From positions 1 to 41,372 of the IMG/VR virus record IMGVR_UViG_3300017752_000037: DNA of 41,372 nucleotides. One strand, given 5' to 3'. This DNA comes from a virus. Numbering within the stretch: the stretch's first letter is position 1; the number at the start of each line of letters is the position of its first letter. Positions 965-32,361 of this stretch are shown here, one piece after another. The notes beneath the pieces are model-generated. The model saw nothing but the letters and a program-made list of their open reading frames with translations. It searched no databases and was not told where the DNA came from. Position numbers and translations under genes: made by a program.

Positions 965-1303
965 TTATGAAGGTTTAGGATTATCGTCTTTAACTTTTTT
1001 TACAGCCTTGTACCACTCGCCAGTTTTGTCGCCTTTGTCTGCTGTCATGTCGTGGTATAACAAGTCAAGTTGGTCTCCAATAATACCATAAGCAGATTGT
1101 CTAGCTTTCTTATAGTCATTGTCTTGTGAGTCTAACTTAAAAGCAGCTGAGTCAGTTACAGCTTGTGCATATTCTGCATCTGTAAATTCTCTAACTACTC
1201 CGTTAACACTGGCTTTCATACCAGCACCACCGTTAGCAGTTTTTAATGCGTCAATCTCTGTCTGAGCTTCAGCTGTAAATTGTTCTAATGTTTTTATCGC
1301 CAT
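965..1303 (-). CDS. Small tail-associated protein (XkdW-like)
   Basis: A 112-aa soluble protein. The segment RQSAYGIIGDQLDLLYHDM followed by GEWYKAVKKVKDDNPKP matches a pattern I know from many phage tail-region proteins of the XkdW type (R..YGxxGDQLDxLYhD...W...VxxVKxxxPKP). Its position at the end of the fibre cluster fits an accessory role in tail or fibre assembly. A good AGGAGATAG Shine-Dalgarno precedes the ATG. The family resemblance is recalled, not searched. Confidence 0.6.
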   Translation of the reverse strand: MAIKTLEQFTAEAQTEIDALKTANGGAGMKASVNGVVREFTDAEYAQAVTDSAAFKLDSQDNDYKKARQSAYGIIGDQLDLLYHDMTADKGDKTGEWYKAVKKVKDDNPKPS

Positions 1304-1339: not shown

Positions 1340-1858
1340 CTACTTCTTCATACCGTAAAGTTTAAATTCTCCACTTGCTATGTTACCACTAGCCATATAC
1401 AACTTAATTGCTGTATGTGCCTCTGCAACTTCCAAAACTCCACCACCTTGATTACCAAACATATTTCCATTGTCATCAATACAAACTGATTCAAGAGTAT
1501 ACATAGAATATTCTCCACTATTGCTTGTATTAAAAAGATACATAACACCATTACCTGTTTGTTGTGTACCTGTACCTAACTCTTGGTCTGTTAATTCAAA
1601 TGCTGTTTCTCCTTGTCCTGCGTCATTATCAAAACCACTAGCAGTTTTTAAAACTTTATGAGCAAAATCATAATTAGATGATGTAACATCTCCACTTCCA
1701 TTTTGAAACCTCGCATGTAATTTTACATTATCTGTTGCAGGTACTACATTTTCAAAGACAATTTTATAAACATTATAGGTACTGTCTAAAGGATTTAATA
1801 AAACAAACCCACTTGAACTTGCAGTTTCACTATCAATTAAAATTAAACTTCCTGCCAT
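1340..1858 (-). CDS. Beta-sandwich virion protein, paralog 6 of a tandem array
   Basis: A 172-aa protein, last of six consecutive related genes. It carries the array's shared signature: a YNVYKIVFENV strand, then a strand with RFQNGSGDVTSSNYDFA, and a C-terminal strand ending FKLYGMKK. The composition is Gly/Ser/Thr/Asn-rich with no charged clusters, as in exposed beta-sandwich fibre or receptor-binding proteins. It starts 4 nt before the preceding stop on the transcript. It is likely part of the adsorption apparatus, by position and composition. Confidence 0.65.
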   Translation of the reverse strand: MAGSLILIDSETASSSGFVLLNPLDSTYNVYKIVFENVVPATDNVKLHARFQNGSGDVTSSNYDFAHKVLKTASGFDNDAGQGETAFELTDQELGTGTQQTGNGVMYLFNTSNSGEYSMYTLESVCIDDNGNMFGNQGGGVLEVAEAHTAIKLYMASGNIASGEFKLYGMKK

Positions 1859-1862
1859 TTTT

Positions 1863-2384
1863 TTACCTCACTCCGTATACTGAAATATTACTATCTGCTA
1901 CTGGATTAGTACTTGATAAAAATATATTTAATCCTGTAATACTTGTTGTTTCTTTTAATGCTGCAATACCTTTCCAACCTGCTCTAGAACCATTATGACT
2001 ATTACTAGCTTGTTGTGAAATAAATGTATAAGTTGATGAAGAAAATGGATTATAAACTTCAAACTTTCCTGTAACTCCCTCAGGTGGAAAGTCCGTTGCA
2101 CCTAACATACCTGTCACATGGTCTTGTCCTGTGTTTTTTGTGTCTGTAAATGTACCTCCTGTGTTCATTTGTTGATAAGCATAATCATAGTTTGAATTAG
2201 TAACAATAGTATCACTTGAATTTATTAACCTTAAATGTACATCTTTAGGACTACCACTATCAGTAGTAATACTATAAGTAACTACATAAACATTATATTG
2301 TGCTGAAAAAACATTTGTTATAGATAATGATGAAGCAGAGCCGTCTGGTGTAAAAGATTTTATAAACTGTAAATTAGTAGCCAT
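1863..2384 (-). CDS. Beta-sandwich virion protein, paralog 5 of a tandem array
   Basis: A 173-aa member of the array. It shows the shared pattern: an N-terminal LQFIKSF, then FSAQYNVYVVTYSI, VHLRLINSSDTIVTNSNYDYAY, a middle segment FEVYNPFSSSTYTFIS, and a C-terminus ending ISVYGVR. It closely parallels paralog 3 at 3566-4102 (the YNPFSSS segment is in both), so these two look like a more recent duplication. It overlaps the upstream gene by TAATG. It is presumed to be a fibre or receptor-binding component. Confidence 0.65.
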   Translation of the reverse strand: MATNLQFIKSFTPDGSASSLSITNVFSAQYNVYVVTYSITTDSGSPKDVHLRLINSSDTIVTNSNYDYAYQQMNTGGTFTDTKNTGQDHVTGMLGATDFPPEGVTGKFEVYNPFSSSTYTFISQQASNSHNGSRAGWKGIAALKETTSITGLNIFLSSTNPVADSNISVYGVR

Positions 2385-3025
2385 TATGAATATCTCTTTA
2401 TGCCATATAGGGATATGGTTGCACTTGTCAAAGCCGTTACACCTGTTCCTGCACCAAATCTAATTGCGTTATTTCGTTCTACGGTATTATACTGTTGTCC
2501 ACCATATTCCATAGCACCTATATCTTGAAAATCTTCAAAAACCATGTGGCTATTACTAAAAGTATTTGTCGCACTATCCCCTGCATTATGTAAATACAGA
2601 TAACCATTAGCTAAAGAATGAGCTGCAGCGTCTATATCTCCACATAACCTTGCACTATCTTGACCTGTGCTAACTCTTTCTGCGTGTCCTGCATCTGCTA
2701 TAAGTCTTGTATTTCCAAAGCGATAAGTTGTTTCAAAAGAACTGCCACCGTCATTACTTAGTCTATAACCAAATTCTGTTTGACTACCAATATGCACATC
2801 TGTAAAAGTAAAGAAATGAATATCGTAAGTTGATTCTTGTAAAGCAGTAAAATCACATACAGCACTTGAAACTGTTTGAGTTTGTATTAATTCAAGTTGT
2901 CCAAAGGATAATATCTTTTCATCTTCTATTAACTCTTTATGTTCATTAACACTAAACACACCTGAGTTACTTTTAACTGCTTGTGTTGGTTTAGCTGTAC
3001 CTATATATCCAAATTCATTACTCAT
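2384..3025 (-). CDS. Beta-sandwich virion protein, paralog 4, with N-terminal extension
   Basis: 213 aa. It has a 35-residue N-terminal extension (FGYIGTAKPTQAVKSNSGVF then SVNEHKELI) that closely matches the N-terminus of paralog 1 at 4099-4731 (GYLGTAPNQIKNNSGVFSVS). The extension is likely a docking segment. The common domain follows: TYDIHFFTFTDV, GYRLSNDGGSSFETTYRF, LYLHNAG and a C-terminal ISLYGIKRYS. Two array members share the extension and the others lack it, which suggests adaptor-bearing and stacked subunits. Confidence 0.65.
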   Translation of the reverse strand: MSNEFGYIGTAKPTQAVKSNSGVFSVNEHKELIEDEKILSFGQLELIQTQTVSSAVCDFTALQESTYDIHFFTFTDVHIGSQTEFGYRLSNDGGSSFETTYRFGNTRLIADAGHAERVSTGQDSARLCGDIDAAAHSLANGYLYLHNAGDSATNTFSNSHMVFEDFQDIGAMEYGGQQYNTVERNNAIRFGAGTGVTALTSATISLYGIKRYS

Positions 3026-3029
3026 AATT

Positions 3030-3566
3030 TTATATTACCTTATATAGTGTAAACACACCATTAGCTATAGCATTAGCATTTGCAACAAATTGTACACCGT
3101 CACATGCTTGATGAGTTGTTAAAGCAAAACCACCCATAGGTCCTGCATACTCAGGTGTTTCAGTTGCGACTGCCATTTCTTCTTGCACAAACGATGCTTT
3201 GTTTGAATCATTAAAGTTATATAAATAAAATACACCTTGTTGACTTTCTACTTGTGTAGTACCACATGACAACATATTGAACTGTGTTAGATTTACATCT
3301 CCTGGATTTGAAAACCCTTGATTAGAATACATAGTTTTTCCTGACCTATCATAGTTAGCATTTGAATCAGCACTACCACCAACAGTCAATCTAACATTTG
3401 GAACTCTACCATCAACAGACATATAAAGACTATGAAAGGTTAACATATAAACATCATCAGTATTAATAGCAAAGTTTGTTGTTGAACTACCACTACTACC
3501 ACCACCTATAATTACATTTGCTACATCGCTAGTTACTGTGAAGTGGTCTACTTGTATTAATCCCAT
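3030..3566 (-). CDS. Beta-sandwich virion protein, paralog 3 of the gene order (178 aa)
   Basis: 178 aa with a Gly/Ser-rich N-terminal part (GGGSSGSS). The array signature is recognisable but diverged: DVYMLTFHSLYM, VRLTVGGSADSNANYDRSG, FYLYNFNDSNKASF and a C-terminal FTLYKVI. It lies between two better conserved members. Function is presumed in host adsorption from the neighbourhood; no family name is assigned. Confidence 0.62.
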   Translation of the reverse strand: MGLIQVDHFTVTSDVANVIIGGGSSGSSTTNFAINTDDVYMLTFHSLYMSVDGRVPNVRLTVGGSADSNANYDRSGKTMYSNQGFSNPGDVNLTQFNMLSCGTTQVESQQGVFYLYNFNDSNKASFVQEEMAVATETPEYAGPMGGFALTTHQACDGVQFVANANAIANGVFTLYKVI

Positions 3567-4102
3567 TAACTATCAACTCTCAATCCGTGTACAGTTACAG
3601 TTGCTTGAAATGTATTAGATGCGTTACCAGAATAAAGTTCTATACCTGTTACGCTTGAAAGGTGTTTACAAAAACCTGCACATTTAGAACTTCTTCCTCT
3701 GTTACTTGATACATCATATCCACCTGCACCTTCGCCAGTCATAACTGTGTGACAACTAGAGCTAAAAGGATTATAGATGTACATCATTCCACCTGCATTT
3801 TCATAGTTTCCTATATTTACAGGAGAATAAAAATATGCACCATCTTGAAATTTATCTTCATCTTTTGTAGCGTCTGCTTTCATATTCATATTCATAGCTT
3901 CATAAAGAGTAATTATAGTAGAACCACTACTATTGATAAACCTTACCCTTAAAGATGCAACATCAGTATTAGAAGGACCATATTGAGTATCAAATATTGA
4001 TACTTTATAAATATCATAGTCTGCACTAAAACAATCTTCTACTTTCATACTAGATACAGCACTTGTAGATTTTTCTTGTTTTACAAATCTTAAATTACTC
4101 AT
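3566..4102 (-). CDS. Beta-sandwich virion protein, paralog 2 of the gene order (178 aa)
   Basis: 178 aa with LRFVKQE at the N-terminus, YDIYKVSIFDTQ, RVRFINSSGSTI, MYIYNPFSSSCHTVM and a C-terminal VTVHGLRVDS. It is most similar to the gene at 1863-2384. It overlaps the upstream gene by a few bases (ATGA-type junction), so the array is translated as one coupled unit. It is likely a receptor-binding or decoration subunit. Confidence 0.65.
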   Translation of the reverse strand: MSNLRFVKQEKSTSAVSSMKVEDCFSADYDIYKVSIFDTQYGPSNTDVASLRVRFINSSGSTIITLYEAMNMNMKADATKDEDKFQDGAYFYSPVNIGNYENAGGMMYIYNPFSSSCHTVMTGEGAGGYDVSSNRGRSSKCAGFCKHLSSVTGIELYSGNASNTFQATVTVHGLRVDS

Positions 4103-4731
4103 AAGGATTTAACTCCATAAACAGAAACATCAAGACTATTTATATTTCCTAATGTACCACCTGATGCAATACTTCTAAACATAAAACCAGGTGTAGCTTC
4201 TGCTGTACCACTATTTCCTCCACCCATTTCGTGATTGTATAAAGCATTTTGGTCAATAAAAGTGGAAGAATAAGAAGCCATTGTTCTATCAGAACCTGCA
4301 GGAGCATACACAAAAATGTGTCCATTTTGAGCTTCGCTAGTACCAGTACCACCACCACCATGAACTTTTATAAATGCAGCACTTGTTGATTTTTCTTCTC
4401 CACTACCACCTGAAGCATTATTACGAAAATTTGCATACTGATAACCACTTGTGACTTCTCCACTTGCATTTTTTAATCTAAAGTAAATTGCATTTTCATC
4501 ATTAGCAGGTACGAAATCTTTCCAATGTATTAAATACATACCATATTTTGCAGTAAAACAATTATCAAATGCTAAAGTTTGTGCTGAGTTATCTGCACTT
4601 CCTGTAACAATAAGTTCGTATGAGCCACCGAAGTGACCCTTAGCTTCTAATTCATTTATATCAGATACAGAAAATACTCCACTGTTATTCTTTATTTGAT
4701 TAGGAGCAGTACCTAAATATCCATAAGGCAT
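4099..4731 (-). CDS. Beta-sandwich virion protein, paralog 1, with N-terminal extension
   Basis: 210 aa, the first array member transcribed. It carries the same N-terminal extension as the 2384-3025 gene (GYLGTAPNQIKNNSGVF) and then the common domain: YGMYLIHWKDFVPANDENA, YFRLKNASGEVTSGYQYAN, GHIFVYAPAGSDRTM and a C-terminal VSVYGVKSL. The extension probably anchors the protein to the tail or to another fibre. It follows directly after a small structural gene. Confidence 0.65.
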   Translation of the reverse strand: MPYGYLGTAPNQIKNNSGVFSVSDINELEAKGHFGGSYELIVTGSADNSAQTLAFDNCFTAKYGMYLIHWKDFVPANDENAIYFRLKNASGEVTSGYQYANFRNNASGGSGEEKSTSAAFIKVHGGGGTGTSEAQNGHIFVYAPAGSDRTMASYSSTFIDQNALYNHEMGGGNSGTAEATPGFMFRSIASGGTLGNINSLDVSVYGVKSL

Positions 4732-4740
4732 AATCTACTC

Positions 4741-5076
4741 CTAGTCTGTTATTTCAAGATAACTTGCAAAAAATTCTATGTCTGAAGCTGCTGATGCTAA
4801 TACTTGGATTTTATCAGTTGCTTCTAAAACTAACTTAGATGTACCTGCTAACTCTATTGAGCTATCTGCAGGAACTGTTAAAGTCTTAGCAACATAACTA
4901 TCCAATGACCCACCACCATCAACTATTCTGACATCTACCGTAGCATCGTTAGTTCCATCAACATTAGTAGCTCTCAACGAGAGAACTATAGCTTCATGGT
5001 TCGCATCCAATGCAGGTATTAAATCAGCTAGTGATGTTGTTGCATCTTTATAAGCATTCTTAAATACATTTGCCAT
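4741..5076 (-). CDS. Small beta-rich tail/fibre-associated protein
   Basis: 111 aa. The pattern MANVFKNA...IVLSLRATNVDGTNDATVDVRIVDG then VPADSSIELAGTSKLVLEATDKIQVLA followed by a terminal strand resembles a beta-sandwich protein common next to fibre genes in marine phages. Its GD/LEATD-type strand pattern resembles small collar or fibre-tip proteins. It lies between the repeat fibre and the paralog array. The assignment is by recalled resemblance and position. Confidence 0.55.
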   Translation of the reverse strand: MANVFKNAYKDATTSLADLIPALDANHEAIVLSLRATNVDGTNDATVDVRIVDGGGSLDSYVAKTLTVPADSSIELAGTSKLVLEATDKIQVLASAASDIEFFASYLEITD

Positions 5077-5087: not shown

Positions 5088-6200
5088 CTATCCTAGTGCC
5101 ACTATCAGACCTACATCTGCTAGACCACTTGTCTTACTATCTACATACGCTTTGATTGACTGTTGCGTAGCTAAAAAAGTAGCACTGTCGCTACTCATAT
5201 TGTCTTCGTCTTTAACAGGAACTACAAAATCTAAGTTCCCATTTGTGTCGTCATATCCTACAGTTATAAATGTTTCTGTACCATCTAACATACCACCAAC
5301 GAAGTCTTCTACTTGTTCTTGTGACAACTGTGTATTATCGTTAGCTGTCATATCAGTAACTACTAAGTCTATAGTGCCATCTGAGTCTTCATAAGTAGCA
5401 GCAATTCTAGTTTCAGTATTGCTAGTAAACATAGCTCCAACTATGTCTTGAACTGCTTCAGTAGTAAGCTGTGTATCAGCAGTCATGTCATCTGCAACTA
5501 AATCAATAGTGCCATCGGCATCTTGATATGTTGCACTAATTCTTGTTTCTGTGTTACTTGTGAACATAGCACCGACTATATCTTGTACAGCCTCTGTAGT
5601 TAGGGTTGTATCAGTAGATACTAAGTCTATAGTGCCGTCACTATCTTCATAAGTAGCAGAGATATTTGTCTCTGTATTGCTTGTGAACATTGCACCAACA
5701 ATGTCCTGGACTGCTTCTGTTGATAACTGTGTATCGGCAGTCATATCTGTAACAACTAGGTCAATAGTTCCATCACTATCTTCGTAGGTTGCAGAGATTC
5801 GAGTCTCTGTGTTACTGGTAAACATAGCTCCCACAATGTCTTGGACAGCTTCTGTTGTTAAAGTTGTGTCAGTAGAAACTAAATCTATAGTTCCATCTGC
5901 GTCTTGGTATGTAGCAGATATATTTGTTTCTGTATTAGAACTAAACATAGCTCCAACAATATCTTGTATGGCTTCTGTAGTTGCACCTGTTCCATCAAGT
6001 GATACCCAACTAGAACCATTGTAAAATTCAAATGCTGCAAGTGTAGAGTTATACGCTATTTCACCAGTGCTTGGTGAGCTATTTCTTTGTGCTGTTGTAT
6101 GTGTAGGTATTAATAAACCTGCGTCAGCACCATCAGGAAACTCTCTTAATCCATCTGTATCAGAACCTGTACTGGTTACATGTATTGGTCTCTCTGCCAT
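5088..6200 (-). CDS. Tail fibre protein with tandem 34-38-residue repeats
   Basis: 370 aa. The N-terminus contains HTTAQRNSSPSTGEIAYNST followed by AAFEFYNGSSWVSL, a familiar fibre head motif. Residues about 79-305 contain six copies of a repeat with core TEAVQDIVGAMFTSNTET and ISATYEDSDGTIDLV, alternating shorter and longer spacers. The C-terminus (ATFLATQQSIKAYVDSKTSG) is the helix-forming TxxxVKxYVD motif found at the end of many phage fibres. The repeats predict a rod-like trimeric shaft. Function: a side or tail fibre linking the nozzle to the receptor-binding array. Confidence 0.75.
   Translation of the reverse strand: MAERPIHVTSTGSDTDGLREFPDGADAGLLIPTHTTAQRNSSPSTGEIAYNSTLAAFEFYNGSSWVSLDGTGATTEAIQDIVGAMFSSNTETNISATYQDADGTIDLVSTDTTLTTEAVQDIVGAMFTSNTETRISATYEDSDGTIDLVVTDMTADTQLSTEAVQDIVGAMFTSNTETNISATYEDSDGTIDLVSTDTTLTTEAVQDIVGAMFTSNTETRISATYQDADGTIDLVADDMTADTQLTTEAVQDIVGAMFTSNTETRIAATYEDSDGTIDLVVTDMTANDNTQLSQEQVEDFVGGMLDGTETFITVGYDDTNGNLDFVVPVKDEDNMSSDSATFLATQQSIKAYVDSKTSGLADVGLIVALG
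5300..5975. repeat. Six direct repeats inside the tail fibre gene
   Basis: Tandem units of about 102-120 bp encode the TEAVQDIVGAMF...GTIDLV repeat. Nucleotide identity between units is moderate, with many synonymous differences, while the protein core is nearly constant. This points to selection on protein sequence rather than very recent expansion. The unit number could change by recombination. Confidence 0.75.
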
Positions 6201-6482: not shown

Positions 6483-7157
6483 CTATCCTCCTAGTGCCAG
6501 TGCCACGCCTAAACTTATTCCACCATTAGCGTCTACATAATCTTTAACTGCTGCAGATGTCGGTATTGTTGTATCGTTATCATTAGATGCAATACCTTCT
6601 GACTCTATTACGAGTGTACCTGCTGCTATCTCAGAGGTTGTAAGTCCTGTTATTGTAAATGTTAAATCGTATGGGTCTCCATCTGAGCCTGTTGATACAT
6701 CAGTCCAGTTAATATCTATACCTGCACCTTCAACGAACTTTACTTCTCTTGATGTATATACACCTGAAGCAACGCTAGGTGCAATAGTAACTTCTGTACC
6801 ATCACCATCTTCTAATACAAAACCTTGTTGTACAGCATCGTGTACTTCTTCTATGTGTTGTTTAACTACAGCTAGTCTTACTGTTGCACCTGCAGCATGT
6901 GATGGAGCAGTAGCAGCATCTTCTGCTGTACCGTGTTTTCCATCCATGTCTCTAGTAACTGTAGCATTAGAATGGTCAGAACCTGATGACCACAATACAA
7001 CTTCTCTGTTGCTGTCATTATCAGGGTCTATAACAAAATACGCAGGAGAATCTACTCCTGGGTCTGCTGCTAAATTCATAGATGTACCACCACTACTTAG
7101 CTGTGCAGCTAGTGTAGTTTCAAAAGCGTTTACTAAATTTGTTTCTCTTGCTACCAT
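6483..7157 (-). CDS. Tail fibre / adsorption protein
   Basis: 224 aa. It contains a domain of the type REVVLWSSGSDHSNATVTRD then MDGKHGTAEDAATAPSHAAG and VRLAVVKQHIEEVHDAV. This resembles the fibre N-terminal module in which a coordinate-rich strand precedes xxHxAGxxVR. The C-terminus TTIPTSAAVKDYVDANGG is a standard fibre-end motif, also seen in the gene at 5088-6200. It probably forms the proximal fibre attached to the nozzle. Confidence 0.65.
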   Translation of the reverse strand: MVARETNLVNAFETTLAAQLSSGGTSMNLAADPGVDSPAYFVIDPDNDSNREVVLWSSGSDHSNATVTRDMDGKHGTAEDAATAPSHAAGATVRLAVVKQHIEEVHDAVQQGFVLEDGDGTEVTIAPSVASGVYTSREVKFVEGAGIDINWTDVSTGSDGDPYDLTFTITGLTTSEIAAGTLVIESEGIASNDNDTTIPTSAAVKDYVDANGGISLGVALALGG

Positions 7158-7378
7158 TAGTTAGGACCTTTTTCGCTACCATAAGATGACCTCTTAGTTG
7201 GTTTATATTGTTTAGATATTTTATTTATACTTTTATCTAATTTTTTTACTTTGTAAATAGATTTTCCTAAACCAATAACTCCAATTTTGCCACTCTTTAC
7301 ACCTGCTAGTGTTCTTTTGTGTATGTTATCTCTTATATTTTTTTGTTGAGTGTATCTTTTAAAAACTTCGTTATTCAT
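7157..7378 (-). CDS. Small basic hypothetical protein in the tail operon
   Basis: 73 aa, very Lys/Arg-rich (KRYTQQKNIRDNIHKRTL; KVKKLDKSINKISKQYKP). There are no membrane segments or cysteines. It overlaps the following fibre gene by one base and follows the nozzle gene directly. It could be a nucleic-acid-binding or assembly factor; no family was recognised. Confidence 0.5.
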   Translation of the reverse strand: MNNEVFKRYTQQKNIRDNIHKRTLAGVKSGKIGVIGLGKSIYKVKKLDKSINKISKQYKPTKRSSYGSEKGPN

Positions 7379-12596: not shown

Positions 12597-13658
12597 CTAA
12601 CCTTCTAAAAGACCAGTTACTGCTCCTGTTTGTCCTTGGACTGCTCCTAATGATACAGAGCTTTGTGTCTGTTGCTGATTCATAATATTCATAACTGTTG
12701 ACAGTTCTTCTTGTTGACCTAATTCAGTTCCTTCTAAAATATCTTGGACTGATGGTACATCTCTACCCTGTGCTAGTGCTTGTTGCTGTATAGTTCTTAC
12801 CTGTGCAAAACCTCTTCGTGCTTTTTCTACACTTAAACCTAAGTTACTTAATTCCTCTGCAGCTTCAATAGATATATCTGTTCCTGCAAGTAATGCTTCT
12901 GCACCTATCCTTGCTGTCCTAATTTGCTGATTTAATATTTCGCTAGAAGTCAATGTACCAGAAACTAAACCTTTACCTATCTCTGGGTCTATAGCACTTG
13001 CTATTATTTCTTCATCTGTCAACACTCTGTTAAAGTTTCTTAAATAAAATTCTTTAACTTGTGGTATAGCGTTTAAAACATTTGTACGAACAGTATTTAT
13101 TCTTTGACCAAACTCATCTGGTGACACAACATTTTCTATAAGCTGTGCTCTTCTTTCTTCTGTCAAAATAACATCTGGGTTTATATTAATGTTTTCTAAT
13201 CTCCTTTTATAAGAGTTTTGTATAGAGGTATACTCTGATTCTGAAAATTTTACTGTTGCTCCATCTGCATTTAGATTTCCTGGAAATAAGGTTTTATATA
13301 AATCTGTTTGTCTAACTGTGGCTATGGCACTATCAGCATCGTTACCAAATTCTATATAAGCATTTGTGTATTCTTCAATTAGTTCCTCTGGTAAAGAATT
13401 ACCAAATTTTAATTTAGCTGAATCTTTAATTCTTTTTTTAGCTTGTGGTGTTAAGGTCGTGCTGTCAACAGTAGAATTATTTTCATTTGTCGGAGCTGTA
13501 TAATTAATACCACCAACAGTTGTTTTCGATTCTCTTAATGCTTGTTCATAATTAGTTGTATAACCAGATGATTTAAAATTATCTATTGATGCTGTATCAT
13601 TTTCATCAACTGTATAACCTTTTAAATAATCACTTCTATAATAAGTTACTGTTGCCAT
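12597..13658 (-). CDS. Virion (ejection-block) protein, 353 aa
   Basis: 353 aa, mainly helical. The C-terminal half has GAEALLAGTDISIEAAEELS, LGLSVEKARRGFAQVRTIQQ and Gln-rich stretches, similar in feel to internal head or tail proteins in actinophages. It is the last of six genes joined by TAATG overlaps (20818, 19781, 18792, 15109, 13658), and ends just before the scaffold promoter. It is likely a structural or ejected internal protein. Family not recognised. Confidence 0.5.
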   Translation of the reverse strand: MATVTYYRSDYLKGYTVDENDTASIDNFKSSGYTTNYEQALRESKTTVGGINYTAPTNENNSTVDSTTLTPQAKKRIKDSAKLKFGNSLPEELIEEYTNAYIEFGNDADSAIATVRQTDLYKTLFPGNLNADGATVKFSESEYTSIQNSYKRRLENININPDVILTEERRAQLIENVVSPDEFGQRINTVRTNVLNAIPQVKEFYLRNFNRVLTDEEIIASAIDPEIGKGLVSGTLTSSEILNQQIRTARIGAEALLAGTDISIEAAEELSNLGLSVEKARRGFAQVRTIQQQALAQGRDVPSVQDILEGTELGQQEELSTVMNIMNQQQTQSSVSLGAVQGQTGAVTGLLEG

Positions 13659-15109
13659 TATCTCTGTGCTCTGACTATACCAGATTGTACACCTATAGAT
13701 GAAGACATATTATCTGTAAGGTCGTCTAGTACTTTCATATTATTATTATTTAGACCGTATGTAGTTAATAATTGGTTTGCTACTGTCTGGTCATTAGCTT
13801 GTAAAATTTTAATCCATATATCAGAAGTTTCATTCACTCTTTCACCTAAAGCGTTAAAAGAAAAGTTACGCCACGGTCCTGCTATTTCTTCATAAGTTAA
13901 ACTTTCATCGTAATTAGGAAACAAAACTTTTCTCTGTCCTAATAATAAATTGTTTATAATCATTAAACCATCTGCTTCAGATTCAGCGTTATTATATTTG
14001 TCTGCGTATTCAGCTAAAGTAGTATCATCTAATTTGCCATACAATGGACCTAGTACTGCTTTGCCTCTATTGCTAACAACACCATATCCTTTTCTAGACT
14101 CGCCTAATGTTCCTCTACCGTCTAACCAATTCGTTATGTCTGTTGCTACTTTAATACCAGATGAACTGTCAGCTAAAGCAGTTATCTGTGCAGAAGCCAA
14201 AGTATCACTTAAAGGTGCTGTGCCTGTTGTTCCTTGTGTTACAGAATCTGCAAACCATGTTGCAAAAGAAACTCCGTTGTTGTCAACTATTGTATCTACT
14301 CCATCTACTCCTGCATCTATAAGTGCATTTCTCCACAAAACTCTATTCTCATCTCTGTAAACAGCAGCATCAACAGGTAAATTATCAGCATTAATATCTC
14401 TACCTCTTGATAGTATTAACCAATCTATTGTTTCTTGGCTTTGTCTTGTAAACCAATCAGTATTATTCCATTCATAATCTGCTATGTCTCTATCTTCAAC
14501 AAGACCTTGAATCCATAACTCCATCATTTCTGGGTCTGACTTTAACCAAGGTTGCCCTTCTACTGCAGCATTCCATTGTTCTGTAAAACCTATAAAAGGA
14601 TTTTCTCCTTGTAATATAACGCGTTCTGGTAATTCTTCTATAGCACCAAAATATATAGCAGTCGTCCACATATCATCACTAGCTGTTTGTACCTGTGGTT
14701 TTTCTCTACCACTATAAAAACCATCTAACTGTTGTTGTGTGGCTGTGTACCTCATGTAAATTTCTGTATTAGGTATTTGCCAAACAACATGCTGTTGACC
14801 TTCGTATTCCCATATTTCAGAATTAACAAAACCTTGTGTAGGTGGTACTACTGGTACTACTGTTTCTGGTGTTTCTTGTTCTACTGTTTCTTCTTTATCA
14901 ATCTTTTCTTCTTGGTTAAATAAAAACTCATAAAACCCTGGTTGTAATTCTGTAGTTTGCATTTCTTCTAATGTAAAAGGACCGAAACTCTTATATAAAT
15001 TTGTAGCGTAATTAGTGTAGTCTTCAATATCTAATGATTTACCTGCTGCAGGTCCATTAGTTTTAATATAGTTATTTAAATTTCTTACAAATAATTCTAA
15101 TTCATCCAT
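13658..15109 (-). CDS. Virion (ejection-block) protein, 483 aa
   Basis: 483 aa. It has an acidic N-terminal region with a Pro/Val linker (EETVVPVV-type), Trp-rich segments (IWEYEGQQHVVWQIPNTEIY; WNNTDWFTRQSQETIDWLIL) and a helical C-terminal half. It has no signal peptide or membrane segment. It is TAATG-coupled to the 1227-aa gene upstream and the 353-aa gene downstream. Its place in the cluster suggests an internal virion protein. Family not recognised. Confidence 0.5.
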   Translation of the reverse strand: MDELELFVRNLNNYIKTNGPAAGKSLDIEDYTNYATNLYKSFGPFTLEEMQTTELQPGFYEFLFNQEEKIDKEETVEQETPETVVPVVPPTQGFVNSEIWEYEGQQHVVWQIPNTEIYMRYTATQQQLDGFYSGREKPQVQTASDDMWTTAIYFGAIEELPERVILQGENPFIGFTEQWNAAVEGQPWLKSDPEMMELWIQGLVEDRDIADYEWNNTDWFTRQSQETIDWLILSRGRDINADNLPVDAAVYRDENRVLWRNALIDAGVDGVDTIVDNNGVSFATWFADSVTQGTTGTAPLSDTLASAQITALADSSSGIKVATDITNWLDGRGTLGESRKGYGVVSNRGKAVLGPLYGKLDDTTLAEYADKYNNAESEADGLMIINNLLLGQRKVLFPNYDESLTYEEIAGPWRNFSFNALGERVNETSDIWIKILQANDQTVANQLLTTYGLNNNNMKVLDDLTDNMSSSIGVQSGIVRAQR

Positions 15110-18100
15110 TATCTCGGTGAGACTCCTGTTTCAATATTACTGATATAATCTTGTTCTTCTCTTTTATTTTTAAGTTCAGTATACTCTTTAAATACATAAT
15201 TAATTATAGGTTCACTTATTTTCCATGACAAGGACCAGTCGTCTGATACTTCACCAAATTGTTTAAATGTATCTTTACCCAATTTTCTCCAATCAGCGTT
15301 TTCAGTTCCACCAAATATTGCACCACCTGCTTCTGCTACAGTACCTAAACCTTGATTTACTCTTGCTTTATTTAATGCTTGACCTACATCTACAAGTAAT
15401 ACACCTACTTCATAAGCTACATAAGCAGATAATGCAGGTGCTGCTATTGATGCTAAACCTAATGCAGGTGCTAGTCTTCTTAAACTTTCTACTATAACTA
15501 TATCTCCTGGGTCAAAGACTTGCAAAGCAGATAATCCCTTACCTACTAATTTTTTAGACGCTTTGTATATATCTTCAAATACTTCTGGTGCTTCGTCAAC
15601 TAATTCCATCCATTTATTTCTTCCTTCATCTGTAACATATTCGGAAACATCTTTAGAACCAAAGCGTGGGTCGTTTGCTTTTGCTGCACCAACTGTTCCT
15701 CCTTCAGTTCTCGGCACTATCTTAGCTATATCTTCATCAATAGTATCTCCCTGCATAATTTTTTCTAAAGTACTTTCGTCTAATTCTATAAATGCACTAT
15801 CAGGAGCTAAAATTTCCATTTCATTACCATCAATACCACCTCTTATACCTAATGCTTCTGTGTCAATTATTTCTGCTGTATTTACCAAATAAGCCTTTAC
15901 TTTTGGGTCTGCTTCTCCTGCATTTCTACCCATCGAAGATTGATAAAACAACATCCCTTCAGATACATTATAAGATTTACTAGCACTACTTATAGGTGTA
16001 GCACCACCGTGTACTCCTAATTCACCTGCTCTAAACACAACAATATAATCTGTGTCAGGAAGGTATGAATTTTGTACTTTAGCTAAATGTGTTTGCATAA
16101 TGTTTTTAATTTCAATTTGATTATCTACTACTAAATCGACTACAGTTTTGTCTACACCTGCTATGTTTAATAAATCAATTTCTTGATTTATAGAGTTAGT
16201 ATTAAAATCTACACCTGTTTCCATAACAGGTACATCACCATATATAACTTTTTTAATAATGTCTGCTTTAGAATCATAGGCATCAAAAGCACCTGAGGTT
16301 TCAAAATGATGTAGATAATATATAAATTTAGATAAGTTTGTTCTGTTAACATCATCAAATTTACTTAATGTTTTATTTTCTAAGGCAGGTATTAATGTAT
16401 TTTCAATAAAATCCACAGTGTCTGTGTTGTTAAAATAATTTCTAACTGTGTATCTTGTATATAAAGATTCCCCTATCTTGTTAGTAAAATCTCTTTTATC
16501 TGAAAAAACACCAAAAGGATTTGTAGGACGGTCATCTAAATTTTGTATTAAAGTAGCTGCTCCTGCATTTGGGTCTATGTTCGGCATCATTTTAATTAGT
16601 TGTTGCATTACTGGATGATTTTTAATAGGAGCATTTAATCTAATAAGTTCGTCTACAAATTCATCTATTTTATATTGTTGTCCAAAAATTGCATCCTCTG
16701 GGTTTGTCCAAAAATTTTCTGGGTTTTGGTTAATAGGATAACCATCTACCATTTCTACATTGTAATGATAAGAACTTGCTACATTTGTAGGTGTGTCTGT
16801 TTCATTTAGTAAAGCATCTATTAAAACTTGATACCTTTCAGGTTTTGTAAACGCTTCTTCTCTGGCTAATTTGGACACTGTTGCGTATGGGTTATTTTTA
16901 ATATGTTTATTTGCAACATCAATATTAAATTGTGCATCATCTATTTTTTCTAATCCATAAGAGTTTTCATTCATAAAAATGTATGATTTACTACCAACAT
17001 CTTCTATGTCATTGGTATAAACTAATACATCTGCATCTTTAAAATGTTTTTGTAATGCTTGTGCTGATGTAAAATCATTTGTTATATCGTATGTTTTACC
17101 ATCAATTTTTATTTGTGTTACATTTGTATATTGATTTACATCACCTGGTCGTTCTATAAACCCCTGTATAAAATCTGCACTCATTTCTTTTTCTATACCG
17201 AACTCTACAAATATTGCTGTATTTGGTATGTTTACTACATTTGCACCAGGTTTTATGTTTACTTTGTATAAATCGTAACCATTTCTTAAATTAAAATCTC
17301 CTGCTTGACTTTTTAAACCTAATTCATCTAAAAATCCTGCAGCAACATTTTCATCATCAATAATATTTATAGTAGATGTAGAACTTTTTAAACTATTAGG
17401 TTCATTTTCTATATCCCACAATGTTTCACTATATATTTCTTCACCATCATATCCATCTAAATCTTGAAATTTTACAGTTAAATCATTATTAGAAGTTTCT
17501 GCAACAATGTTGAAATCTGCTTCTACGCCTGTTGGTAATGTAATAGTTATTTCTCTCGTAACCATACCATCTGTTACTTCATAAAAATCTCCTACTTTTT
17601 CAAAACTTACTTGTTCTGATAATTCACTAACTAAATCATTGACTTGTTCTTGTATAAAATTTAAATTATCATTGGCTATTTTATATAATTGTTCACCACC
17701 ATAAAATTGACTTGCTCTATCTAAAGCTGCATTGTAAGTTCCTGCGTGAAACTTTTTATTTACTGTTTCACCTTTAGATATAGAATGATATAACTCTATA
17801 CCATCATCTACTACATTTGTAGGTGTGATTGCAAAAATGCCTTCGCCTTTTAATGCTTGTTTATACTCTGTTTCTGATATTGCACCATTATCATATAATT
17901 TTTTAACTTTTTGTTCTTCTGTTAAATTTTCAGGAGGTGTTTCTAAATCTTTAACTATATCATCAAATTTAGATTCATCACTTATTCTTGGGTCATCAGG
18001 ACTAACTTCTTCTCCATAAAAATCTGTGTATGTAACTTTGCCATCTGCATCAGTAGATTTTATTATCAAGTTTTCTTTTACTTCTGGCAACCAGTCACCT

Positions 18101-18792
18101 TCTGGAGTCATACCCATTTTCTCCATATTTCGTCTGTGACTTTCATCTAAGTATGCTTCGTAAGAACCACCAGGAAATAAATTGTTTACAAATTTTATTT
18201 TTACATCACTTGCTTTATTGTAAAGAGATTGTTTTTCAAAAAACTTTTTAAATTTTAATTTTTTTAAATCACCTTCTGTATATTCTCCACTAATTATTTT
18301 TGCTTGTTGTATTAATTTTTGTTCTGGTCCTTGTGCATCTGCACCTTTAAGTGCATATTCTGCCATGTAATGACTAGGTGGAGCATCTATAATTTCATCC
18401 AAATCAAAATCATAAACACCTGATGGTGTTCTTCTTGTAACTGAAATCATATACTCTATTAAATCATTTGTGTAATATTCATTTCTTTGACCTAGTTGAA
18501 AAATTAAATATGGTGATAATCTTTTATTTTCTGGTATAAAATCGTATACATCTATTTCACTATAATGGATATCATTTGCGTCCATGTAATCCATAATTTC
18601 GCTAAAAGCTGTATCTTCAATAATTTTTAATTCATCACCACCATAACCCATTTGCCTTCCACCAATATAATTCCACAAAAATTTATTATCTATAGGTTCG
18701 TCATATCCTTTATTAAATAAAGCAGTGTCTTGTTCCTGCTTTAAAAATTCTAGCTCACTATCGTCAGGGATAAAGTTGTCGTCTTCTACCAT
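15109..18792 (-). CDS. Giant virion protein with two ADP-ribosyltransferase-like regions
   Basis: 1227 aa. Residues 334-360 (ELYHSIS ... KFHAGTYNAALDRA) have the H(A/F)GTxxAAxxR pattern of polyvalent-type ART domains, followed by YKVNIKPGANVVNIPN (509-524) and VLVYTNDIEDVGSKSYIF (589-606). A second region has VVFRAGE (918-924), SSASKSY (935-941) and EMEILAPD (991-998). These match the order Arg, Ser-rich strand, ExE of R-S-E ADP-ribosyltransferases. An amphipathic hydrophobic stretch lies at about 1102-1137. The neighbours are a lytic transglycosylase-like protein and other large virion proteins, so it is probably packaged and ejected, as T4 Alt is. The virion role is fairly likely; ART activity is a motif-level inference, with confidence of about 0.5. 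Confidence 0.6.
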   Translation of the reverse strand: MVEDDNFIPDDSELEFLKQEQDTALFNKGYDEPIDNKFLWNYIGGRQMGYGGDELKIIEDTAFSEIMDYMDANDIHYSEIDVYDFIPENKRLSPYLIFQLGQRNEYYTNDLIEYMISVTRRTPSGVYDFDLDEIIDAPPSHYMAEYALKGADAQGPEQKLIQQAKIISGEYTEGDLKKLKFKKFFEKQSLYNKASDVKIKFVNNLFPGGSYEAYLDESHRRNMEKMGMTPEGDWLPEVKENLIIKSTDADGKVTYTDFYGEEVSPDDPRISDESKFDDIVKDLETPPENLTEEQKVKKLYDNGAISETEYKQALKGEGIFAITPTNVVDDGIELYHSISKGETVNKKFHAGTYNAALDRASQFYGGEQLYKIANDNLNFIQEQVNDLVSELSEQVSFEKVGDFYEVTDGMVTREITITLPTGVEADFNIVAETSNNDLTVKFQDLDGYDGEEIYSETLWDIENEPNSLKSSTSTINIIDDENVAAGFLDELGLKSQAGDFNLRNGYDLYKVNIKPGANVVNIPNTAIFVEFGIEKEMSADFIQGFIERPGDVNQYTNVTQIKIDGKTYDITNDFTSAQALQKHFKDADVLVYTNDIEDVGSKSYIFMNENSYGLEKIDDAQFNIDVANKHIKNNPYATVSKLAREEAFTKPERYQVLIDALLNETDTPTNVASSYHYNVEMVDGYPINQNPENFWTNPEDAIFGQQYKIDEFVDELIRLNAPIKNHPVMQQLIKMMPNIDPNAGAATLIQNLDDRPTNPFGVFSDKRDFTNKIGESLYTRYTVRNYFNNTDTVDFIENTLIPALENKTLSKFDDVNRTNLSKFIYYLHHFETSGAFDAYDSKADIIKKVIYGDVPVMETGVDFNTNSINQEIDLLNIAGVDKTVVDLVVDNQIEIKNIMQTHLAKVQNSYLPDTDYIVVFRAGELGVHGGATPISSASKSYNVSEGMLFYQSSMGRNAGEADPKVKAYLVNTAEIIDTEALGIRGGIDGNEMEILAPDSAFIELDESTLEKIMQGDTIDEDIAKIVPRTEGGTVGAAKANDPRFGSKDVSEYVTDEGRNKWMELVDEAPEVFEDIYKASKKLVGKGLSALQVFDPGDIVIVESLRRLAPALGLASIAAPALSAYVAYEVGVLLVDVGQALNKARVNQGLGTVAEAGGAIFGGTENADWRKLGKDTFKQFGEVSDDWSLSWKISEPIINYVFKEYTELKNKREEQDYISNIETGVSPR

Positions 18793-19781
18793 TATCCACC
18801 AAGTAATCTAATAGCTTCTTCTATTTCCTTCGACATTGTTTTTCTGGTATTCGGTTGTTGTTGTTGTATTGGTTCTAGATTTTTCTGTGTTCTTTTTTCA
18901 TTAATACTAGATACCATTCTATCTATCAACATTTGTATTGGTGTATTACCATCTCTTATTTTTTGTGTAATAGGACCTACAGGAATATTACTAAATGCTT
19001 CATTACCTTTATCTACTAAACTCATATCCGACCTTAAAGGTCTGTCTGGTTCCGTAGGTGAGTCAAACATAGGGTTTAATAATTTATAAAAATCTGATTG
19101 TTCAAAATCTCTTTCTCTTGGTGGTTTACCAAATTGATTAGTTATCCCTGCACTTCTTGATGTTGTATCAATTTCTGTATCTTCAGGTATTGTAGTTGTA
19201 GTTGTAGGTGGTACTGTCGTAGTTGTAGGTGGAACTGTTGTAGTAACAGGAACATCATCAATATTGCCGAAAGATATTTGGTTGTAATTTTTAATGTAAT
19301 CTACAGCTTTAGTTATCTCTGCATCTAACCCATCTATAAGTACCAATTCATTGTCTGCTCCTAATCTTGACATGTTAGGTTTTATATATTTTGTGTATGT
19401 CTTCCAAGCATCAAAAGGGTCTGGACCATAAGATTTAGGATTTCTTCGTCTGTAGTCAACTATATGTGCAGCAAAGGCTGTTGCATACTTAATATCATAT
19501 TTAACTGATTTAGTAAAATCTTCTAATGACAAAGTCTTACCTTGATTTTCAAAAAACTCTACAGTCATATTGTCTGGTTTTTCTCCAGTAAAATATCTTG
19601 GAGGATTAATTTGCCATAAACCTTTATCATCAATGTCAGTATCACCATCTATACCATGTTTAAATTTTGATTCTAAGTAAGCAATAGCAATTAATATTCT
19701 AGCATCATCGCCTGGAACCTCTTGTTGTGATAATAATTCTTTAACTTGTTCTACTGTATATTGCGTTTCTACTTCTTCCAT
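18792..19781 (-). CDS. Virion lytic transglycosylase-like protein with Thr/Pro linker
   Basis: 329 aa. Residues 29-59 have an SLT/goose-lysozyme-type core: ILIAIAYLESKF with the presumptive catalytic Glu37, then DDKGLWQIN (51-59). Further conserved-looking residues are in KYATAFAAHIVDYRRRNPKS. A VTTTVPPTTTTVPPTTTTT linker (about 181-199) separates this domain from a helical C-terminal tail. The linker style is actinobacterial. No signal peptide is present, and the gene sits in the ejection block, so it most likely acts from the virion to open peptidoglycan during DNA entry, like the SLT domain of T7 gp16 (inference). Confidence 0.72.
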   Translation of the reverse strand: MEEVETQYTVEQVKELLSQQEVPGDDARILIAIAYLESKFKHGIDGDTDIDDKGLWQINPPRYFTGEKPDNMTVEFFENQGKTLSLEDFTKSVKYDIKYATAFAAHIVDYRRRNPKSYGPDPFDAWKTYTKYIKPNMSRLGADNELVLIDGLDAEITKAVDYIKNYNQISFGNIDDVPVTTTVPPTTTTVPPTTTTTIPEDTEIDTTSRSAGITNQFGKPPRERDFEQSDFYKLLNPMFDSPTEPDRPLRSDMSLVDKGNEAFSNIPVGPITQKIRDGNTPIQMLIDRMVSSINEKRTQKNLEPIQQQQPNTRKTMSKEIEEAIRLLGG

Positions 19782-20818
19782 TAGCCTCTCCTCATTGGTG
19801 TACTAGATTGTGCCGAAGATAGACCTGCCATATTTTTTTGTATTCTATAAAAAGTATCATCTTCTATATCTGCTTGTCTACTTACTTCTTCTCTAGGTGC
19901 AAAGACTTCATCTTGTATATCTTCTGTGTCTGTCAAGATACTTGTGTCAGGTTCTTCAGCAGGAGTACCTTCTACAAATCCTGCAAACTCTCCTGTATCT
20001 GTAGACAATAAGGTATCTGGTACAGCAGGAGCTAAGTTATCAACGCTTTCTAAAAATTGAGCAGCAGGTCCACTAGCAAATTTGTTACTAAAATAATTTG
20101 TTTCATATTCAGACAAAGGTGCACCTTTTCGTAATTCTACTTCTTTCAAAAAACCGTTATAGAAATCTTCTAAGTCTTCGTTTTTATATTCATAAGTAGT
20201 CGTGTTACCTGCTTGATACGCTTGGGAAAATTCTCCCATCATTGTAGTTGATGCAACCCAAGAAAGTTTACCATTATTATCCATAGAAAAGTCCATAGCT
20301 TTTTTGATGCCTTTCATGGTTTCAGCATCTAAATTAGCACCGTAAGTTTTACTTAAATTTATTAGACCTGCTTTAGCTAAAGCATTTTTAAGAGGTATTC
20401 TTTGTGCTTTATCTAAAGCAGTCCATTGATTCTTTATATCTTTTGTGTAATATATATTTAAAAAAGCATCTGATGTTCCAAACAAATCTCTTCTTTCAAC
20501 TTGGTATTTATCTGATGTTAAAAACTCCTCTGCAGAAATAGGTTCAACAATAGGGTTTCCAGTATTTGCTTCATATTCTATGTTACCTGCATCGTCTTTT
20601 TTGTATACACTGTATTCTTTTTGAAATCCTGTTCCTAATAATTTGTTAGGGTCTGAAAACATAGACATATTTAATAGATTTTCGTATATGTCACCACCAG
20701 TTTCATCCATACCGATTGGAGCATTGTCACCTTGTGGAGGCATAAGGTCTAATGGACCTACACTTTTTTGACCATCTTTCTCATCTGTTATGTTTTCAGG
20801 CATAAAGAAATTAACCAT
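19781..20818 (-). CDS. Virion (ejection-block) protein, 345 aa
   Basis: 345 aa. It is soluble and acidic, with an N-terminal segment PLDLMPPQGDNAPIGMDETG. A helical middle (KNQWTALDKAQRIPLKNALA) and low-complexity acidic stretches near the C-terminus (PAEEPDTSILTDTEDIQDEV) follow. It is TAATG-coupled between the 2301-aa protein and the transglycosylase. Likely a structural component; no family recognised. Confidence 0.5.
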   Translation of the reverse strand: MVNFFMPENITDEKDGQKSVGPLDLMPPQGDNAPIGMDETGGDIYENLLNMSMFSDPNKLLGTGFQKEYSVYKKDDAGNIEYEANTGNPIVEPISAEEFLTSDKYQVERRDLFGTSDAFLNIYYTKDIKNQWTALDKAQRIPLKNALAKAGLINLSKTYGANLDAETMKGIKKAMDFSMDNNGKLSWVASTTMMGEFSQAYQAGNTTTYEYKNEDLEDFYNGFLKEVELRKGAPLSEYETNYFSNKFASGPAAQFLESVDNLAPAVPDTLLSTDTGEFAGFVEGTPAEEPDTSILTDTEDIQDEVFAPREEVSRQADIEDDTFYRIQKNMAGLSSAQSSTPMRRG

Positions 20819-23800
20819 TAATCTATTACTCCAAATCTATCTACTTCATTAACTAACACTTCATCGTATACTACCATAAACAATGGGTATTTTTCTATAA
20901 TCTTAAAGGCTTGTGTTTGCAATTCTAGACGAACAGCATCTGCACCAGGTGATGTATTGTTTTTTAAATAATTAACTGCTTGTTCTATATTAGGATAATT
21001 TTTGTTTTTTCTGATAGCATCTAACGCTCTTGTTCGTTCAGCGAAATATTCTTGTAAGTAACCAGTTAATTCAAACTGTGCAAACTCAGGATGTTCTGCT
21101 GCTCTAGTTAAATAATCTATCATTATATCATTGTCTAATCGTTCAGCAGTTTCGCCACCAAGAACACTGTTGTATGCTTCTGACTTACCATAAGCTATAG
21201 GAAACATAGACGCTAACCAAGCATCAATCTTTGCGTTTTCTGCTTTTACAATGTTTGCAAAATTAGAATCAGGTTTATATTTTACTGTTGCTTCAAGTTC
21301 TCTTAGCTTATCTTCTTTCATAGCTTTACCAATTACAGAAGCTAAAAACTTTTGTACATCTGCAAACATTTCTTGTTCGTTTTTAGGTGTTACTAGCTCT
21401 AAAGGTAAAGATTCGTAACCACTAAAATCTAATAAACCCTCATCTAGATTTCTAGAAAAGTAAGTTAATACTGGTCCAAAATCTTTTGCAAGTTCTGGGT
21501 GTGATAACACAAAATCATATTCTAATGTTGTTCTTGGTACTCTACCTGCTTCAGATACAGCTTTACCTTTTAGTTGCAAACCTGCAGATGTAAACCCTTG
21601 TATACCATATTTATCTAAACCTAATAGTCTTACAACTTCTACTAATGCGTAGTATTCACCTTGTGTTGGTCCTAATGTGGCTACCCATTGGCTTCTCATT
21701 GATTGGTAAAAACCATGTATTGCTGCAAGTTCAACCATATTGTTATAAAAAATACCAGAATCAAAACCTTCTTCATCGTACCATTTTTTAAAAGTTGCAG
21801 GATTACCTTCTATCGCATAAAGAACATTTAGCTTTGGTGCAAACGGACTTATAAATCTATCGTATGCCATTAATGTATAAATGTTTTCTCTTACCTGCTC
21901 GGTAATAGTTTCTAATGCTTCAAAATCATCAGCTAACTCTGGGTGTAACTGTGCTGATATTTGAAAGGCTTTTGTTGTTGCACCTAACCATATATCTTCA
22001 TCTACACCTGCTATGTTAAAATCTTTTGCCATAGCGTTAAACCAGTTCTGAGCTACTGAAGGTATAGCACTTCTTATAAATTCTTCTGGTATATCTAATA
22101 AATCTATTTCACCTTTGCCACTGAAAGGTAAGTTATAACCTGCCATGATATATCGTTCTACAAATCTTTTAGCTGATGGCTTATCTCTTAATAAAAAACC
22201 TACTGGCATACTCATACCTGCACCTAAAGATGGTAGTACTCCTGCACCACCTACGCCTAAAGCACTTAGTCTAAGACTTCTTTTAGCGTAAACTCTTTCA
22301 CTAGGCACTGATGCGTCTTCAGAATACTCGCCAAAACCATTTGATTTTGCATACGAATCTAACGGTGTACCACCTGTCGGTATAAAAAGATAATTGTCAC
22401 CAAACTTATCTTTAAAGATAACATTATTTTCTACACCTTTTCTATAACCTTCTGCAATTTGATACGCTGCTTTTACATTGTTTTTACTTAACAAGTAATA
22501 CCTACCTGCGTATTCTCTCCATGCTTCAAAAAAAGCAAAACCACTTCTGTAGGCTTGTGCAAAATATCCACGCTCTGTTAAATTAAACAATAGATTAGTC
22601 TGTGCTTCCATAGCAAACTCTATTGCTCTTTGGTGTATGTCTTCAAAACTCATATTTCTTACAATATTTGCTCTAACATCATTCATGTCTAATACAGATG
22701 TATAACTCCACTCGTTCATATTTGGCATTATGGTATTGTCAGCAGGTTTAAATATTTCCATAGTCTTTTCTTTTCTATTAAAGATGCCTTTAATATTTAA
22801 TTTTTCAAATATTTTGTCTGCAACAATAGCTTTTTCTGTAACATCTAAGCCTTGTCTTTCTTTTAAATATCCAGGGTTTGTTACTATTGTTTCTTCACCT
22901 AATGCTTTTACTTGATTATCTGTTAGTAATTTCTTTCCTCTTAATCTAAGTGTGTTATACACAGCACCATTGTTAATTATTTCATAAGTATCATCATATT
23001 TAAATATACTTTCAATAATCTCGTCACCTTCTTTTCTTAAATACACTTCACCAAAAGATATTTGGTCAGCAGCTAATCCTAAATACTTAGCTTTGTCATA
23101 CGCTTTTTTACTAGCATTGATAGTTGTATCTTGTACACCACGATTAATTTTAACTGACACATCTAAAAACCATTGTCCTCTAGCTTCATCCCATCTACCA
23201 CCTAGTACATGGTCGGTCAATCTTAACTTATCTCCATTATCAAGTATGTATGATTTCAATACATTCGGTGTTAAAGAATTTTTACCACTTACAACTAATG
23301 TTCTGGTGTTGTATGGAGATACAAACAAACTAGCAACTTTACCCCAAGATTCTTGATTGCCTAAATCTAGGCTAAAACCTTCTGGATTTTCTCGTACAAA
23401 TCTATATACACTATCAGTGAGTTCTTCGTTTAATGCGTTCTTAGGTACAGCTATTCTTACTGGTTGATTTAAAACTTTTTCTATAGTTTTTCTACCTACA
23501 TCAAATGTTTGTTCACCTGTGTATTTAGCTTTTTGCGTTTTACCTTTGGTAGATGCTTGGAAATTTTTACGGATTTGTAATAAATTAGGTTTACTACCAG
23601 ATAAACCTAATATTTTTTCTAACCCTTTTTTGTTAGCACCAGGTTCTGAAAGATACTTAACTGCGTCTTTAATGATTAATGCTACATCTTCTGCACCATA
23701 ACCAATGTCATAGGCATTTAATAAAACATCTTGTACAATTTTTTCATTAGCAAATTGTCCATTGTAAATTATTTCATCTTTATTAAATCTAGATATGTAA

Positions 23801-27723: not shown

Positions 27724-28061
27724 TAAAACCTACTTCGTACTTTATATCCATAATTGTTTTGTATAATCTCTTTAAGAATTTGTGTATTAGTACCGTCTGG
27801 CATTTGTATATTTTGTTCTACACCTAGAGCATTGCCTGGTTCGTTAGTTCTTTCTGTATTTCTAAAAACATCTTGCATTTCACCTATGTTAGGTATACCA
27901 CCTGTTGTTGTTGTTTCTCTTTTAACAGCGTCAATACCTGCTTGTTGTTGTGCTCTGCCACCATACTCATCATCAGGTATAGCTTTCAAATCTGCATAAG
28001 CACCATCTAATTTTGTATCTGTATTTTGGGTTAACTTACTTGGTTTTCTACCACCTGGCAT
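27723..28061 (-). CDS. Small head-region protein
   Basis: About 112 aa, starting at MPGGRKPSKLTQ. Of the ATGs at 28070, 28067 and 28061, the last has the best spacing (9 nt) from the AAGGAG motif; the earlier ones are too close. The protein is hydrophilic, with a Thr run (TTTTGG) and a helical C-terminal end. Its stop overlaps the giant gene's ATG (TAATG). It lies two genes after the portal and may be a head-completion or connector-associated protein. Family not recognised. Confidence 0.5.
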   Translation of the reverse strand: MPGGRKPSKLTQNTDTKLDGAYADLKAIPDDEYGGRAQQQAGIDAVKRETTTTGGIPNIGEMQDVFRNTERTNEPGNALGVEQNIQMPDGTNTQILKEIIQNNYGYKVRSRF

Positions 28062-32233: not shown

Positions 32234-32361
32234 TATCTTTTCTTTGTTTTATATAAACGCTTACTATTTTTACTATGTTTTTTTCCTGAATGGATTTGTC
32301 CATTAGGCATTTTGTGGTGAGAGCCTTTAAACTCTTTACCTGCTTTTGTATATACTTTCAT
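32233..32361 (-). CDS. Very basic 42-aa protein
   Basis: 42 aa, 14 of them Lys or Arg, with six His: MKVYTKAGKEFKG, SHHKMPNGQIHSGKKHSKNS, KRLYKTKKR. The HKMPNGxxHxGxxH core is recurrent in marine phage genomes. It is TAATG-coupled to the next gene and overlaps the previous stop (ATGA). Likely nucleic-acid-binding; the exact role is unknown. Confidence 0.55.
   Translation of the reverse strand: MKVYTKAGKEFKGSHHKMPNGQIHSGKKHSKNSKRLYKTKKR

Follow-up and report, generated by a model that had tools for sequence, protein, structure and literature searches.

The DNA analysed here (the window) is the virus record IMGVR_UViG_3300017752_000037 of IMG/VR, taken over its whole length of 41,372 nucleotides (nt), and its subject is an array of six genes that follow one another at positions 1340-4731, all on the minus strand. 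These are not six loose copies but one three-gene unit in duplicate, (A-B-C)x2. Its best-supported reading, to which we assign a probability of about 0.62, is a host-recognition cassette encoding two orthogonal A-B-C sets, each of which would form a 1:1:1 heterotrimeric receptor-binding head attached via its A protein. A first-pass annotation of the sequence had suggested a hetero-oligomeric receptor-binding complex; that idea is retained in the form of two separate A-B-C sets, in place of a single complex of six parts, and that the sets assemble is our inference.

Three classes in a fixed order

The six open reading frames (ORFs) encode proteins of 210, 178, 178, 213, 173 and 172 amino acids (aa) with gaps of no more than 4 nt, in agreement with the initial description of consecutive paralogous genes of 172-213 aa. 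One array member retrieves two others in the window (E=4.6e-12 and 3e-7). A tree of 96 proteins, which includes relatives from IMG/VR, falls into subfamilies A, B and C, made up of the proteins in positions 1 and 4, 2 and 5, and 3 and 6, respectively; its main splits have support of 94-100 in the Shimodaira-Hasegawa-like approximate likelihood-ratio test (SH-aLRT). Only three changes of class label are needed on the tree, the minimum being two and the shuffled mean 98. Profile-profile comparison connects A with B (E=2.5e-28) and B with C (E=5.7e-32). The census comprised 42 complete, non-redundant IMG/VR arrays with 207 proteins. Class-specific hidden Markov models read every array as A-B-C-A-B-C (27 arrays) or A-B-C (15 arrays) and as nothing else, with margins mostly of tens of bits or more. 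Because 27 arrays are ABCABC, the triplet duplication is old and fixed. Diversification by duplication, as first proposed, is therefore part of the story, but current diversity stems from body swaps between phages within a class.

Two apparent exceptions to the rule were rejected. The extra 'B' of L118 (935-1558) is a separate protein of 207 aa, fibre-like at its N-terminus and class-B-like in its C-terminal domain, that lies about 2.6 kb away and outside the same phage's array. In L135, where A1 is missing, the sequence (474-1416) instead passes abruptly into an unrelated, radical-SAM-like gene on the other strand, and the contig is probably chimeric. The family is not always found in threes, as pelagiphage EXVC029P has a lone phrog_14820 member (L195, 5935-6531) behind a C1q-annotated fibre gene. 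No array was detected in 18 terminase relatives, many of whose records are fragments, and the cassette therefore does not follow the terminase lineage.

Gene junctions and body divergence both bear on whether the triplets are units. Junctions overlap, and are thus coupled, in 118 of 138 cases at A-B and B-C vs 5 of 27 at C1-A2 (p=1.6e-11). Body co-divergence, computed across the 27 double arrays, gives correlations of 0.53-0.56 within triplet 1 and 0.26-0.30 within triplet 2, against a cross-triplet mean of 0.12; C1 and A2, adjacent but in different triplets, correlate at 0.19, below the 0.56 of A1 and C1. The true triplet partition was best in 199 of 200 bootstraps. This co-divergence is moderate, not decisive, evidence that the triplets are units.

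Conserved ends, putative docking segments and exchanged bodies

Identity of the N- and C-termini is 0.50-0.74 within the same slot vs 0.23-0.46 with the other slot of the same class, whereas the bodies are nearly slot-neutral (0.33-0.38 vs 0.28-0.35). The usual C-termini are LYKVV for C1, YGLKK for C2, LRVDS/T for B1 and VYGVK for B2. A terminal (L/V)YG(I/V)(K/R), earlier ascribed to all six proteins, is present but not universal, as 3030-3566 ends in LYKVI and 3566-4102 in VHGLRVDS.

The N-terminal segment GY(L/I)GTA...NSGVF, noted from the outset on two members, is found on exactly two in the window, 4099-4731 and 2384-3025. This segment of ~40 residues, a putative docking segment, is confined to class A within the arrays. 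In phages with two triplets each A protein bears its own version of it; in phages with one triplet, A lacks it. It is also carried by two unrelated glycine-rich adhesin-like proteins, one in L161 (1905-2897, matching PF21722, Gly_rich_2) and one in L163 (3224-4159), the latter encoded by a gene inserted between C1 and A2, i.e. between the two triplets. In L163 the socket of A may therefore also take a head of another kind. A search of the phage collection for the segment gave no match.

Near-identical bodies are common to different phages only within a class, including exchange between slots 1, 2 and single, and all cross-phage pairs with common interior 10-mers are of the same class, none joining different classes. 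The recombination among copies for which a search had been proposed is thus seen within classes and between slots, but not between classes, and to judge from the sequences it is such swaps between phages that generate present diversity. The ratio of nonsynonymous to synonymous substitution rates (dN/dS), proposed by the first-pass annotation as a check, is 0.1-0.7 in close pairs with no sign of positive selection; recent point mutation is therefore under purifying selection.

One relative of the window is contig G023 (41,381 bases). Between the two, identity is 90-97% for the fibre genes, the hub-like gene, the capsid and the two flanking genes, while it falls to 37-42% by tblastn and 34-47% by global alignment for the six array proteins; at the nucleotide level the docking segments are 89-92% identical and the bodies do not align. 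The array is accordingly hypervariable while its flanks are ~92% identical, and not conserved without variation. The terminase of G023 is only 56% identical to that of the window and the 13.6-28 kb module of the window has no match in G023. The recognition cassette is thus carried along in a mosaic genome.

Tips, but not rings, are expected to be so variable. The hypervariability therefore counts, together with the separate docking segment on each A protein and the body co-divergence within but not across triplets, against a single hetero-hexamer or pseudo-sixfold collar or baseplate ring, of which single-triplet phages would use two copies of each chain. Copy numbers of three and six would suit a sixfold tail, and one weak Foldseek match is a baseplate-cup chain (template modelling (TM) score 0.21), but a ring is on balance quite improbable.

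Predicted fold, fibre context and alternative assemblies

The AlphaFold2 model of A2 (2384-3025; predicted local distance difference test (pLDDT) 86, predicted TM score (pTM) 0.80) has an all-beta core and one short helix in the docking segment. A read-through A-B-C fusion, based on natural L150 DNA with two internal stops read as glycine, is modelled as three domains with closely similar strand patterns in all three classes. The beta-sandwich assignment made at first reading thus holds at the level of models, and the classes have one common predicted fold, not differing folds. Foldseek searches of the PDB give recurrent weak galectin/LamG-like matches (best TM about 0.40), short of a shared lectin fold and of a good match to any solved structure, and a PDB sequence search gave nothing credible. 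Among predicted viral structures (BFVD), 131 proteins match at E<=1e-3, with listed TM mostly 0.6-0.77, and several of these matches are parts of longer proteins annotated as tail fibres. C1q-like heads, considered in view of the C1q-annotated neighbour in EXVC029P, were set aside, there being no C1q among the matches listed.

None of the six proteins matches Pfam at E<=1, nor did the three tried match NCBIfam; the sole strong PHROG match among the six is that of C2 (1340-1858) to phrog_14820, 'hypothetical protein' (2e-17). Related domains are found in cultured SAR11 phages, both at the C-terminus of a longer fibre, HTVC034P gp39 (phrog_18673 N-terminus), and as three adjacent members in HTVC010P (gp30-32), HTVC019P (gp45-47) and HTVC034P (gp35-37). 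These triplets are placed after tail-fibre genes and directly before a phrog_4912 fibre-assembly gene. Their ends are slot-specific as well (N-terminal identity 0.59 vs 0.32, C-terminal 0.85 vs 0.57), their bodies slot-neutral (0.54 vs 0.51). The class C profile matches HTVC019P gp45 at 1.5e-12; C2 matches phrog_14820, the family of the HTVC019P triplet, directly, and the other members only via the A-B-C profiles.

Because the domain occurs in fibre proteins, the docking segment on adhesins and phrog_4912 behind the SAR11 triplets, the context is one of receptor binding, and the array proteins are very probably receptor-binding proteins. That the array also adjoins fibre-like genes speaks in the same direction. 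Head fibres, decoration proteins or secreted glycan-binding proteins, varying for other reasons, would fit the lack of Pfam or NCBIfam matches, but given this context such a role is most improbable.

Within the favoured heterotrimer reading, each A-B-C set would be translated as a coupled three-gene unit, and its three products would combine, one copy of each, into a beta-sandwich head that is a heterotrimer. Joining the correct three chains, and keeping set 1 separate from set 2, would be the task of the conserved, slot-specific strands at the N- and C-termini. Through its ~40-residue N-terminal segment A would dock the head on a tail fibre or hub whose gene lies just upstream, and the host surface would be contacted by variable loops in the bodies. 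Recombination in the conserved gene ends would exchange bodies between co-circulating phages, only within a class, and recognition could therefore change with assembly preserved.

Tailed-phage fibre tips are usually homotrimers. This general pattern favours three (or six) separate homotrimeric receptor-binding proteins that would give several receptor specificities, as do the termination of single-chain fibres by the same domain, the swapping of bodies gene by gene and the separate N-terminal extension on each of the three SAR11-phage chains. Separate homotrimers would nevertheless leave unaccounted for that copies are always three or six, one per class, with no loss or AAB in the 42 arrays, that overlapping junctions lie mostly inside triplets, that B and C of the window family have no N-terminal segment of their own for attachment, and that bodies are never exchanged between classes. 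Homotrimers are hence considered unlikely, though they are the strongest of the alternatives.

Several observations weigh against the heterotrimer reading. Bodies swap singly, as between L107 and L169, although a tight interface should oppose such swaps, and single copies of the domain, in EXVC029P and as the C-terminal domain of long fibres, indicate that the fold needs no heterotrimer. The fusion model shows no confident packing of its domains (pTM 0.41), a result to which its linkers of 1-2 residues and alignment of 19 rows give little weight either way. Co-divergence in triplet 2 leans largely on the divergent L112, falling from 0.30 to ~0.12 without it, and a strict subset of 10 arrays favoured a different partition.

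Neighbouring genes, known systems and hosts

Coordinates of the array and its neighbours are given in Table 1. The downstream flanking gene has a homologue in 39 of the 42 loci with complete arrays, and its product is possibly an assembly factor; for the upstream flanking gene the count is 27 of 42. The fibre-like protein at 5088-6200 is a candidate attachment point. It contains about six repeats of the form TEAVQDIVGAMFTSNTETxISATYxDxDGTIDLV, which cross-align in the G023 comparison.

Table 1. Array genes and neighbouring features of the window.
Feature	Position	Strand	Remarks
Window	41,372 bases		virus record
C2, class C	1340..1858	-	172 aa; phrog_14820 match 2e-17
B2, class B	1863..2384	-	173 aa; 1-nt overlap with A2
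A2, class A, triplet 2	2384..3025	-	213 aa; docking segment present; AlphaFold2 pLDDT 86, pTM 0.80
A2 docking segment FGYIGTAKPTQAVKSNSGVFSVNEHKELIEDEK	2900..3025	-	modelled helix at residues 26-34; 89% nt identity in G023
C1, class C	3030..3566	-	178 aa; 1-nt overlap with B1; C-terminus LYKVI is the C1 slot code
B1, class B	3566..4102	-	178 aa; 4-nt overlap with A1
A1, class A, triplet 1	4099..4731	-	210 aa; N-terminal docking segment present
A1 docking segment MPYGYLGTAPNQIKNNSGVFSVSDINELEAKGHFGG	4612..4731	-	~92% nt identity kept in G023, body not
Downstream flanking gene	965..1303	-	112 aa; phrog_1787/9114; DQLD motif
Upstream flanking gene	4741..5076	-	111 aa; phrog_1276/26609
Repetitive fibre-like protein	5088..6200	-	370 aa; putative fibre role, from repeats and position
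Second fibre-like protein	6483..7157	-	224 aa; putative role

Elsewhere in the window, an ORF of 73 aa at 7157-7378 (~217 bp), with no PHROG match, is precisely missing from the otherwise ~92% identical region of G023. The large module at 13658-28070, which lacks a match in G023, holds ORFs of 483, 1227, 329, 345, 2301 and 115 aa, and neighbouring capsid and fibre genes are kept at 90-97% in that contig; its 2301-aa ORF has no PHROG or Pfam match. The region 32000-39585 has few long ORFs and a switch of both strand and skew, from minus to plus, near 33-38 kb. A single-strand annealing protein (36641-37558) and an exonuclease (38407-39585) are encoded in the window, and these recombination genes could aid mosaic exchange.

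Receptor-binding modules are already known, and heterotrimeric tail proteins have one precedent. This closest precedent is virophage DSLV2, where the products of three adjacent paralogous tail genes, whose clades correspond to gene position, join in a heterotrimer, as demonstrated by co-purification, native polyacrylamide gel electrophoresis and electron microscopy (PMC12724248). DSLV2 and the window have in common three paralogous genes of ~200 aa in a row and in the same orientation, clades that follow gene position, ends that are conserved, and a variable region, the latter being receptor-binding in DSLV2. The DSLV2 proteins have a PF07484 collar domain and a T4 gp37-like needle fold, and the window proteins match neither: none of the six matches PF07484 in Pfam (E<=1), and the T4 gp37-tip fold (2XGF) is not among the PDB matches listed by Foldseek. 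Unlike that of DSLV2, the window cassette belongs to tailed phages, is often doubled to ABCABC, has a docking segment on A and has bodies that recombine.

The SAR11 triplets resemble the window array in their homologous domain, three adjacent copies and slot-specific ends. They differ in forming a separate lineage outside A/B/C, in being single triplets and in bearing an NNNS-type N-terminal extension on all three proteins. Directly behind them stands the phrog_4912 gene, whereas the downstream gene of the window is phrog_1787-like and has no match to HTVC010P gp33.

Marine metaviromic islands have recognition genes (tail fibre, C1q-like, lectin-like and hypothetical) that vary strongly under conserved flanks while gene size and number are kept (PMC3909814); in the window, too, conserved flanks enclose variable genes whose number is maintained. 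Paralogues, duplication, a three-class copy rule, slot codes and triplets are unmentioned in PMC3909814, and variable recognition genes of marine phage islands are described without an A-B-C rule there and in PMC10504331. In the literature searched, nothing was found that describes an A-B-C cassette of tailed phages that is doubled, slot-coded and recombining.

A phage contig from the Candidatus Actinomarina single amplified genome AG-919-G14 has A-B-C-A-B-C between homologues of the same two flanking genes. Unlike the window, it encodes a tape-measure-like protein, and neither the terminase nor the capsid of the window has a detectable relative in it; the cassette therefore crosses phage types. 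In the paper on that genome (PMC7771536) the contig counts as a genuine Actinomarinales phage whose recognition region varies; the variable part is described there as sialic-acid-removing proteins and not as a paralogue array. Cultured relatives found via terminase and capsid are only 23-30% identical and are mostly phages of actinobacteria and enterobacteria, the nearest, though distant, matches being largely actinobacterial phages. Together with the AG-919-G14 cassette, these matches make Actinomarina a plausible host of the window phage.

The cassette relative in an Actinomarina single cell is a host lead for an uncultured group. The three-class rule and the independent SAR11 parallel, including HTVC010P, point to heteromeric tips as a common ocean strategy. 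There is about an even chance that many abundant marine phages build obligate heterotrimer heads, often as two orthogonal sets, with slot codes and recombining bodies, and so achieve combinatorial recognition. If so, a single variant body could alter one third of a head, and the two sets of a virion could bind two receptors. Arrays of 'hypothetical protein' genes would become candidate predictors of host range, and the host-recognition islands of marine phages would become directly testable.

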